36,468 nt of DNA from Acidobacteriota bacterium (GTDB lineage: Bacteria > Acidobacteriota > Holophagae > Holophagales > Holophagaceae), in assembly GCA_014189895.1 (NCBI GenBank), contig BJFQ01000012.1, forward strand, positions 1-36,468, in the 5' to 3' direction. How positions within the stretch are numbered: the stretch's first letter is position 1; every line of letters begins with the position of its first letter. Below the pieces are notes generated by a model. That model did no database searches and was not told where the DNA came from. It saw nothing but the letters and a program-made list of their open reading frames with translations. Below are positions 25,952 to 30,470 of the stretch, one piece after another. The position numbers and the translations under genes were made by a program.

Positions 25952-26527
25952 GTGAATTATCTACTGGGAGCTTTCCCGCCTGAATTAGGCCCGTGGTTGA
26001 AAGATCCCCCTCGGGGATGGACAGCGCAGCTGACCGGGATCGGAGGGATGGAAGCGGGATTGACCGTCCAAGCCTTGCTACAGCATCATCCTGGCGCGCG
26101 CGTTTTATTTATAGGAACCTGCGGCGCGTTTGACCTTGAGCGGTATCCCTTGGGGACGATTGTAGAGATTCGCGAAGCAACGACTCGAAGTCTAGGAGAG
26201 GTTTCGGGAGACAGTTTCCATCCGCCTGAAGAAACCCTGCTTTGGCCTCAAAGTTGGTCCCTCGAGGTTTTTCCTCAAGTGCGGGCCGTCTGTCCTCCTG
26301 CCATCACCCACAGTGTATCGGGCGCTAAAGAGTTAGCCTCGTTCGGTGAGATCGAACATTTAGAAGCGGCAGCTATTTTTGCAGCGTGTCACCGTCTGTC
26401 GGTCCCCGTGACCGCCTGCCTGGTTGTGGCGAATGTCGTAGGACCAGAAGGTCATGAGCAATGGAAAACCTACCACCAAACCTTCATGGAAGAGCTCCGT
26501 TCAAAACTCTTGCCCCGACTGATTTAG
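25952..26527 (+). CDS. Nucleoside phosphorylase-like protein, possibly futalosine hydrolase
   Basis: A 191-residue member of the purine-nucleoside phosphorylase/UDP phosphorylase superfamily. The recognisable parts are LTGIGGMEAGLTVQAL, LFIGTCGAFD, the catalytic-glutamate region EIEHLEAAAIFAAC, and ACLVVANVVGPEGHEQW. The last segment has Asn where phosphorylases carry the 'SD' aspartate, and it is followed by a distal Trp. This resembles futalosine hydrolase (MqnB) of the alternative menaquinone pathway. No other mqn genes are present, so the specific function is tentative. GTG start with GGGAG 5 bases upstream. Its stop shares bases with the convergent rnhA stop. Confidence 0.65.
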   Translation: MNYLLGAFPPELGPWLKDPPRGWTAQLTGIGGMEAGLTVQALLQHHPGARVLFIGTCGAFDLERYPLGTIVEIREATTRSLGEVSGDSFHPPEETLLWPQSWSLEVFPQVRAVCPPAITHSVSGAKELASFGEIEHLEAAAIFAACHRLSVPVTACLVVANVVGPEGHEQWKTYHQTFMEELRSKLLPRLI

Positions 26528-27921: not shown

Positions 27922-28347
27922 ATGCCCCATAATTTACCCTCTGGCTTTCAAGGCTCACCCTCGAAGTCTCTCTTAGATCATATTCCTGCTGATGCTCCGG
28001 TCTTAGATCAGGCGCGCGAGATCGGTCGACGATGCGCGGACGTCGGTTTTGAGTGGGCGACCGCTGAGGACGTGATGAAGAAAGTCGAAGAGGAATTACG
28101 TGAACTTCAAAATGAAACCTCGCTAGAACGTCAAACGGCTGAACTCGGAGATGTCCTTTTTAGCCTTGTCCAATGGGCTCGGAAGCAGGGTATCGATCCC
28201 CGCGAAGCCCTTCGCTTGCAAATGATTCGCTTCAAAGCACGCTTCCGGGAAGTGGAGCGTCTCGCTGAGCCTCTAGGAGGCGTCGCGGCGTGTTCGTTAG
28301 AGCAATTAGAATCTTTTTGGCAAGCCAGTAAGCGAACCCAGCCATGA
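27922..28347 (+). CDS. mazG: MazG-type nucleotide pyrophosphohydrolase (single domain)
   Basis: Hydrolyses nucleoside triphosphates to monophosphates, sanitising the nucleotide pool. The metal-binding motif EExxE is seen in VEEELRELQNE, with the second acidic pair in TAELGDVLFSLV. The stretch GFEWATAEDVMKKVEEEL corresponds to the second (C-terminal) half of the two-domain E. coli MazG. At 141 residues only one domain is present, with a roughly 30-residue N-terminal extension. The stop overlaps the start of the AroD-AroE-RodZ fusion as ATGA, so the two are translationally coupled. Confidence 0.88.
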   Translation: MPHNLPSGFQGSPSKSLLDHIPADAPVLDQAREIGRRCADVGFEWATAEDVMKKVEEELRELQNETSLERQTAELGDVLFSLVQWARKQGIDPREALRLQMIRFKARFREVERLAEPLGGVAACSLEQLESFWQASKRTQP

Positions 28348-30470
28348 ATCCCCTGCCTTTTTATTGTGTGACCCTGACTCATGCCGATTGGTCCTCCGCG
28401 CTTCGCTATACCCACGAACTGGGTAACGACGTGTTACCCGAATTAAGACTGGATCTCTTTCCTAAAGAAAACCCTAGTCAACTCGTTCGTGATTTGCGCG
28501 GTCGTTGTGTGGTGAGTTGTCGCCGAATGAGTGAAGGGGGTCAATGGCCCGACGAGCAAGAAGTCGAACGCTTACGCTTCCTGCGCTTGGCGTACGAAGC
28601 GCACCCCCAATGGTTAGATCTCGAGTGGGATTTGGTGCTCCCGCCATGGTGGGATGCCTCAGCTTCCACGTCGCTCCTGCGCTCGGTCCACGTTCCCCTC
28701 GGGGTGATGGATCTTCGGGATCGATTTAACCATCGGCCTGAGGGCGATGCGTTTAAGTGGGTTGGGGTGGCTCAAAATCTTTCTGATAATGCGTCCGTGA
28801 AAAAGATTCTCGAACAAGCGCGAATTGAAAAAGTAACGTTCTCCGCTTTTCTACTCGGCACTAAAGGACTTCCCAGTCGTTATCTCCAACGCCATTGGGG
28901 CGGATCTTTTGTCTATGTCGCGCCGTCCGGGCAGATCCCTGCCGTGAAAAGTCAACCCTCGCTTGATCAATCGCGTATGATGGGTTGCGAGCGGATGAAT
29001 GGAGAAACGGTGGTGGCCGGTCTCATGGGCGAACCGATTTTACATTCGAAGGGCTTTCAATTTCACGCCGATCAATTTCTCCTCGAAGAAAAAAATATTG
29101 CCTACATTCCCTTTGAAACGGACGATCCCAAAGAAGCCCGAATGGCCATCGAGAGCTTAGAAATCCAAGGGCTGAGTATCACCACTCCGCTGAAGATCCC
29201 CCTTTCAGAACTCTTAGGACTCCCTACCATTGCGAATACTGTTTGGAGGCGAACCTGGGGGGATATTTGGCGCCATGCCAACACCGACCAATTGTCGTTT
29301 GAAGATGCGTTGACCCAGCTTCCGAAGGGCCCTGTTGTCGTTCTCGGGGATGGCGCTGTGGCAACGATTTGTTGTCAGTCCCTTAAAAAACTGAAACGAC
29401 GCTTCGTCCAAGTCAGTCGTCGACGTCCGTTTGCGGTCGCAGACATCAAATTACTTGCTCCCGTCGGCGTCGTTCAAGCAACGTCTCTCGGGATGAAATC
29501 GCGGGACCCGCTTCCGTTTCCCGAGCACCTCACGGCGATGACGGGGTCCCTCCAGTGGGCGATGGAATGGGTCTATAAAGAGACCACACTGTTTGAGCAA
29601 TGGGCCAAAGCCTTGCCGGTGACCGTCGTCGATGGCCAGCAGCTTTTTCAGCAGCAAGCCCATTTACAGCATCGCATGCTGTTACAAATGCAATACACCA
29701 AGCGCATCAAAATCACGTCTTTCGGTACGCTCCTTCAAGAAGCTCGACTCGCTTCCCGTTTGTCCCTCGATACGGTCTCTCAGCAACTGCATATTCCGAT
29801 GAATCTTTTAGAAGCCATGGAAGACGATCAATGGCACCTTCTCCCCACCGGCCGGGCTAAACCCTTGGCGCGTCAGGTGGCCGAATTTCTCCACTTCCGA
29901 CCCGAAGACTATGCGGACGCTTTCGAAGTCCTTCCCTCTTTTCAGGATCCTAAAGCGGTCGGCGAAATCGTTCCGATCACTCTTCGCGAAAAACTGATTC
30001 GCCTCGGCGCCCTCCTATTGACGACGGTGGTTGCGGTCTCTCTTTTTTTCCCCGGTAAATTCATTGGACAGAAGCAAAAGTCTACACCCCCCGTCCTATC
30101 ACCGCCTCCTGACCCCAAGGCCTCCTTAGTTACTCCATCTCCCACGAATGGAGACCCGTTACCTGTCCTCGGGGAATATGACGCAAAGCCGATTCAAGAC
30201 CTCACGGTCCTTCAAATTACAGCGCTGTCCACAGTTCAAATCGATTTGATTATGGACGAACTTGCGCAGCCGATCATCCTCACGCTCGCCCCGCAGCAGA
30301 CCGTGCTGAGGCGTTTTCGTTCGGGGTTTAAACTTCGAAGTACCCAACCACAAAACTTTCGCTTCACGGTGAACGGACAAAATCAAATACTGCCCAGTGT
30401 GGCTTGGCCTCCAGCGTCGATGTGGGAAGTTAGCTACGATCGGCAAGGTAAGCCCCTTCCTTTGCGCTAG
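28344..30470 (+). CDS. AroD-AroE-RodZ three-part fusion protein
   Basis: One uninterrupted 708-residue frame. Residues about 1-215 resemble type I 3-dehydroquinate dehydratase (ELRLDLF, VVSCRR, WLDLEWD, FKWVGVA with the Schiff-base-type Lys, then SGQIP). Residues about 219-455 are shikimate dehydrogenase (AGLMGEPILHSKG, TTPLKIPL with catalytic-type Lys, ANT, HANTD with the catalytic-type Asp, GDGAVA cofactor loop, QATSLGM, and a C-terminal QQQAHLQ helix). Residues about 458-525 are a RodZ-type HTH (FGTLLQEARLASRLSLDTVSQ). A membrane helix (about 553-575) and a proline-rich linker follow. A DUF4115-like beta domain (VLQITALSTVQIDLIMD) ends the chain. AroD-AroE fusions are known, but I know of none with RodZ. 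Topology implies cytosolic enzymes tethered to the inner membrane, with the tail outside. Several active-site positions are altered (see findings). Confidence 0.85.
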   Translation: MNPLPFYCVTLTHADWSSALRYTHELGNDVLPELRLDLFPKENPSQLVRDLRGRCVVSCRRMSEGGQWPDEQEVERLRFLRLAYEAHPQWLDLEWDLVLPPWWDASASTSLLRSVHVPLGVMDLRDRFNHRPEGDAFKWVGVAQNLSDNASVKKILEQARIEKVTFSAFLLGTKGLPSRYLQRHWGGSFVYVAPSGQIPAVKSQPSLDQSRMMGCERMNGETVVAGLMGEPILHSKGFQFHADQFLLEEKNIAYIPFETDDPKEARMAIESLEIQGLSITTPLKIPLSELLGLPTIANTVWRRTWGDIWRHANTDQLSFEDALTQLPKGPVVVLGDGAVATICCQSLKKLKRRFVQVSRRRPFAVADIKLLAPVGVVQATSLGMKSRDPLPFPEHLTAMTGSLQWAMEWVYKETTLFEQWAKALPVTVVDGQQLFQQQAHLQHRMLLQMQYTKRIKITSFGTLLQEARLASRLSLDTVSQQLHIPMNLLEAMEDDQWHLLPTGRAKPLARQVAEFLHFRPEDYADAFEVLPSFQDPKAVGEIVPITLREKLIRLGALLLTTVVAVSLFFPGKFIGQKQKSTPPVLSPPPDPKASLVTPSPTNGDPLPVLGEYDAKPIQDLTVLQITALSTVQIDLIMDELAQPIILTLAPQQTVLRRFRSGFKLRSTQPQNFRFTVNGQNQILPSVAWPPASMWEVSYDRQGKPLPLR

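Follow-up and report, generated by a model that had tools for sequence, protein, structure and literature searches.

In a window of 36,468 nucleotides (the whole stretch of DNA analysed, contig BJFQ01000012.1 of the Acidobacteriota assembly GCA_014189895.1) we find a gene that joins the shikimate-pathway enzymes AroD and AroE to the cytoskeletal membrane anchor RodZ in one uninterrupted reading frame. The fusion is genuine and genus-wide, and we consider it likely that it was made by deletion and consists of two ordinary proteins working in one chain. The frame opens with an ATG that overlaps the stop codon of mazG by 4 bases and runs for 708 aa with no internal stop, as the original prediction had read it, and it resolves into the following segments:

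28344..30470, + strand: aroDE-rodZ fusion gene, 708 aa, with the same fusion in genomes G001 and G002
28344..28988, + strand: AroD domain, type I 3-dehydroquinate dehydratase, residues 1-215 (Pfam DHquinase_I, motifs, PDB matches)
28989..29687, + strand: AroE domain, shikimate dehydrogenase, residues 216-448 (Pfam Shikimate_dh_N, NCBIfam aroE, alignment with 15 relatives)
29688..29717, + strand: fusion linker MQYTKRIKIT, residues 449-458, 10 residues
29718..29918, + strand: RodZ-type HTH_25 cytoplasmic domain, residues 459-525 (Pfam HTH_25, PDB profile matches)
29994..30050, + strand: single transmembrane helix, residues 551-569 (hydropathy 2.2 over 19 residues)
30054..30158, + strand: Pro-rich periplasmic linker, residues 571-605 (sequence)
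30159..30467, + strand: diverged RodZ C-terminal periplasmic domain, residues 606-708 (alignment with standalone RodZ)
27922..28347, + strand: mazG, C-terminal half only, 141 aa, aligning to relatives' MazG residues about 129-261

The dehydroquinase, shikimate dehydrogenase and HTH domains named in the original prediction are all matched above Pfam's curated cut-offs: DHquinase_I over residues 8-209 (1.1e-15, 58.8 bits vs. 22.2), Shikimate_dh_N over residues 227-287 (3.2e-6, 27.7 bits vs. 27, with 35.8 bits in the G001 fusion) and HTH_25 over residues 463-520 (9.7e-11, 41.8 bits vs. 24.6). NCBIfam aroE models extend the AroE assignment to residues about 218 to 454, a match over 225-446 included; the best E-value is 1e-12 when the whole protein is searched and 9e-14 when the AroE part is searched by itself, with scores well below their equivalog cut-offs. 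Among structures, the AroDE part matches AROM (6hqv) and the plant DHQ-SDH (2gpt), on which the AroE lysine was aligned. Using residue roles that we presume from S. enterica AroD equivalences and from the AROM alignment, we identify E33, R35, R60, E64, H116, K138 and R179, together with Q197 or Q204, as candidate AroD catalytic residues present in all three species of the genus; the putative Schiff-base lysine K138 (in FKWVG) and H116 (in RSVHV) are found in those species and in 15 aligned relatives. The AroE pair K284/D315, which we take to be catalytic from established knowledge of the E. coli enzyme, is likewise kept in all three species, as is the nucleotide loop G335-x-G-x-x-A340 (G335/G337/A340); S358-R359-R360 and Q438 complete the recognizable AroE motifs, and the seven unambiguous AroD positions as well as K284 and D315 are present in nearly all relatives too. 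Alignment with relatives indicates that AroE has lost at most about 5 residues from its C-terminus. Enzymatic activity of this half is an expectation drawn from residue conservation, and neither a second shikimate dehydrogenase (SDH_N) nor any DHquinase_II was found in the three fusion genomes.

The original prediction had further recognized a full RodZ architecture, and this holds for the HTH_25 domain, the single helix and the Pro-rich linker; the DUF4115-like part, a family now named RodZ_C (PF13464), has no Pfam match in the fusion, though it can be aligned to relatives. Of the 12 proteins in the RodZ alignment, 4 give a RodZ_C signal and do so weakly, one standalone relative reaching 20.0 bits, below the cut-off of 23.9, and the C-terminus of the fusion aligns over its full length to standalone RodZ while being diverged and devoid of the 'LDNAGVV.VEVAG' stretch. 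The HTH is retained whole in the same alignment. Searched alone against the PDB with phmmer it gave no useful match, and a RodZ-family profile retrieved 3fym, 4gqm and 2wus, of which 2wus is RodZ from T. maritima, as found in its complex with MreB, and 4gqm is Chlamydia CT009. Orthology is also supported by position, as the order mazG-aroDE-response regulator-moxR-rodZ recurs in several genera, and no HTH_25 protein besides the fusion was found in the three genomes. Separate copies of aroD, aroE or rodZ, about which the original prediction had asked, were therefore not detected in them, leaving the fused gene as the only detected copy.

Residues F60 and Y64 of E. coli RodZ are critical for binding MreB (PMC4047632), and by alignment the corresponding positions in the fusion are R504 and L508. 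This replacement weakens any claim of MreB binding and leaves RodZ homology standing. In standalone Holophagaceae RodZ proteins (L034-L049) the first site is occupied by R, G or L and the second, in most cases, by L; because the R/L replacement is thus shared by most of them, MreB binding cannot be argued from the fusion. One genus of the family, g6, is the sole one whose standalone RodZ has a tyrosine at the second contact site. MreB itself (PF06723) is encoded in all three fusion genomes (1e-114 to 3e-116).

Known RodZ proteins have a cytoplasmic N-terminus, and it follows from this topology that AroDE would be held at the inner membrane on its cytoplasmic side. An AlphaFold2 model built from two sequences had a mean pLDDT of 34 and a low-confidence helix at 547-568. 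In E. coli, RodZ tagged with GFP at the N-terminal end works when no other copy is present, and the cells can largely do without the periplasmic domain (PMC6946637, PMC7089770); since that fusion works and that domain can be spared, an N-terminal enzyme and a diverged C-terminus are compatible with RodZ function. Membrane insertion of the chain and a working RodZ half are, on these grounds, what its sequence leads us to expect.

To place the gene, 77 Holophagaceae genomes (three of the fusion genus and 74 others) and a wider set of 396 Acidobacteriota were searched. The three, all draft assemblies, are the source genome G000 (1.17 Mb, 97% complete), G001 (84% complete) and G002; all of them carry the fusion free of stops, the two others at 90% and 73% identity to the G000 reference, and the closest named record is a Holophagaceae MAG with 90% identity across the whole protein. 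The search for the same architecture in related genomes, as originally suggested, thus gave three of three within the genus and none in the 74 other Holophagaceae. Among the 396 Acidobacteriota AroDE-type chains are common, and no match spanning both AroDE and RodZ was found outside the genus, with the proviso that RodZ proteins of distant families would often be too diverged to match. Long open frames around AroDE in G158, G146, G364, G279, G057 and G143 proved to be AroDE without RodZ, and two further genomes, G312 and G173, contained no qualifying frame. One of these chains, L060 (G364), comes from a different family of Acidobacteriota and has at its end a long Lys/Ala/Pro-rich extension resembling a histone tail. 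An apparent MoxR-RodZ fusion (a 607-aa frame, L040) was also rejected, its N-terminal part being an out-of-frame high-GC extension with moxR overlapping in another frame.

The genomes are draft assemblies, a metagenomic source among them, which could speak for an assembly or binning artefact; we regard its probability here as negligible. A stop or frameshift at the AroE-HTH junction in close relatives, which was to count against the fusion, is seen in neither G001 nor G002. Assembly error and chance are excluded because these two genomes carry the same stop-free fusion with the same junction. The synonymous divergence of G000 from G001 has reached saturation, so that their copies are old, separately assembled descendants of one ancestral fusion. 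No published description of RodZ joined to a shikimate dehydrogenase was found in the literature searched, nor any paper combining RodZ, shikimate dehydrogenase and fusion, in line with the original expectation of novelty; the joining is apparently undescribed, a new deletion-born arrangement of known families.

The origin of this arrangement can be read from the relatives. In the rest of the Holophagaceae, distinct genes encode AroDE (about 450 aa) and RodZ (about 275 aa), and in about 50 of the 74 genomes outside the genus, a count taken from coordinates, they lie on the same strand 2.2-2.5 kb apart. In the examined loci of that spacing two genes intervene, one for a response regulator of about 400-417 aa (Response_reg plus a sigma-54-type AAA domain) and one for a MoxR ATPase of about 315-327 aa (AAA_3); most of these loci also have mazG upstream of aroDE. 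Both intervening genes are missing at the fusion locus in the streamlined genus. No MoxR (AAA_3) scores above cut-off anywhere in the G000 or G002 genome, and in G001 a single 352-aa frame gives a borderline match, 28.9 bits in sum. The fusion-genus genomes searched contain no ortholog of the response regulator, only paralogs of about 30% identity. In all three genomes mazG, too, has shrunk, and what remains is the C-terminal half, 141 aa vs. about 265 aa in relatives. Because aroDE and rodZ flank the response regulator and moxR in most relatives and both of these genes are missing in the genus, we attribute the fusion to an in-operon deletion during genome reduction. Genus g2 shows the cluster broken in a different way: G013 (94% complete) has response regulator, moxR and rodZ with no detectable AroDE, and G003 has AroDE with no adjacent rodZ.

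We therefore propose that the ancestral Holophagaceae order would have been mazG - aroDE - response regulator - moxR - rodZ, and that in a streamlined lineage (about 1.2 Mb) the two middle genes would have been deleted and the aroDE stop codon lost, such that a nearly complete AroDE would have come to read straight into a nearly complete RodZ. The AroDE part would go on making shikimate from 3-dehydroquinate in the cytoplasm, and the RodZ part would insert one helix into the inner membrane, with the enzyme attached at its N-terminal, cytoplasmic end. AroD and AroE, of which no other copy was detected in the cell, would thereby be placed at the membrane, and they would neighbour the elongation machinery only if the RodZ part still joins the elongasome. 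A frame-preserving deletion is enough to explain the protein, and its retention may reflect only that both halves are needed.

The junction and the linker length are identical in G000, G001 and G002. In-frame ATGs at residues 445 and 449 are common to all three species, and M449, which aligns with the rodZ start of relatives, may be the former rodZ start codon. The full-length chain could accordingly be cleaved, or RodZ could also be started at M449, and one gene would then yield free RodZ besides or instead of the fusion, by proteolysis or by internal initiation at M445 or M449. We hold this to be unlikely: no Shine-Dalgarno match was found upstream of either ATG, in a window where only some genes have a clear one, and the conserved methionines are perhaps merely inherited.

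Between G000 and G002, AroD and the C-terminal domain each have a dN/dS of about 0.09, AroE one of about 0.08 and the HTH one of about 0.03, and these low values place the domains of the fusion under purifying selection; the fastest-changing parts are the juxtamembrane stretch, the membrane helix, the Pro-rich linker and the periplasmic part. The same comparison contains a tract of about 1.8 kb (28150-29940), extending from the end of mazG across the fusion junction to the end of the HTH, in which the DNA is 89-99% identical vs. 51-84% in the surroundings and synonymous divergence is about 0.2 vs. over 1.4 just downstream. This looks like a recent homologous recombination between the G000 and G002 species, and it cannot explain the fusion in G001.

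One half might nonetheless be decaying, with AroE or the periplasmic part of RodZ losing function and carried along. The RodZ C-terminus has diverged past Pfam recognition, and the AroE part, close above its Pfam cut-off (27.7 vs. 27 bits) and far under the equivalog ones, may have lost or changed its activity. We judge such decay to be quite improbable, considering the low dN/dS of the domains, the presence of K284/D315 and the AroD residues in all three species, the fact that this is the only detected copy, and the occurrence of chorismate synthase in G000 and G002, the third genome, G001, being 84% complete. Together, the lack of any other detected aroD, aroE or rodZ, the kept catalytic residues and the low dN/dS make both halves probably functional.

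Whether the joined halves also cooperate is a separate matter. The original prediction saw in the protein a metabolic sensor or enzyme tethered to the elongation machinery, perhaps coupling aromatic or quinone supply to cell shape or envelope growth. The evidence does not bear out a dedicated sensor or such a coupling: the sister genera show how the fusion came about as a by-product of genome reduction in which two genes were lost, no ligand-sensing or regulatory feature was found, and the MreB-contact residues of E. coli are not retained. In a broader form, AroDE tethered near MreB/RodZ would couple shikimate-chorismate-menaquinone supply to envelope growth or channel product to membrane enzymes, and we grant this some weight while regarding it as unlikely. 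That three species have kept the fusion, with 73-90% identity and signs of purifying selection, speaks for it, and retention in several species could mean that the fusion is useful in itself. So does the metabolic setting, in which the chorismate made downstream of the fusion plausibly serves the membrane quinone, menaquinone. The genome encodes two VitK2_biosynth (MqnA/MqnD-type) proteins, and 1.8 kb upstream lies a futalosine-hydrolase-like (MqnB) gene (25952-26527; 191 aa vs. 228 in the model, 57 bits, below the equivalog cut-off). Judged by family and genome size, the genus is probably UBA12189 (Acidiparvus), a streamlined Holophagaceae genus reported to have complete menaquinone synthesis and to be auxotrophic for most amino acids (PMC11561045), with the reservation that local G+C in G000 (51%) and G002 (54%) exceeds its published 44-49%, which G001 (45%) fits. 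Set against this, a neutral deletion accounts for the architecture alone, the fusion contains no sensor or ligand domain that we could find, its MreB-contact residues are not conserved, and no relative outside the genus has the same joining. The specific version in which the sole AroD-AroE, sitting at the RodZ/MreB complex, ties chorismate and hence menaquinone to the place and time of envelope growth strikes us as very unlikely. We infer instead that tethering is a by-product of the deletion and not a regulatory device.

The locus offers an example, readable by synteny, of how streamlining can create a new multidomain protein: a cell-shape protein became welded to a housekeeping enzyme, and the weld has persisted genus-wide even though no other copy of the three functions was detected. 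It opens to experiment the question whether fusions of this kind are simply tolerated or shift the site of metabolism, and it cautions that in reduced genomes a fusion can be a misleading sign that its parts work together.

With known bifunctional AroDE proteins (plant DHQ-SDH, 2gpt and 6bmb; the C-terminal part of AROM, 6hqv and 5swv) the fusion shares the AroD-then-AroE order and the catalytic motifs, but no known member with a C-terminal RodZ module was found, whereas here the chain continues into an HTH, a helix and a periplasmic part. With RodZ (E. coli b2516, T. maritima 2wus, Chlamydia CT009 4gqm) it has in common HTH_25, one helix, a Pro-rich linker and a periplasmic part, and it differs in its N-terminal enzyme, in R504/L508 for F60/Y64 and in an unrecognizable RodZ_C; the Chlamydia protein lacks the periplasmic domain altogether (PMC4047632). 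Other deletion-born fusions in reduced genomes likewise join operon neighbours once the intervening genes are lost; no described case of this pair was found among them, and here the joining, which is fixed genus-wide, unites a pair of enzymes with a cytoskeletal membrane anchor.
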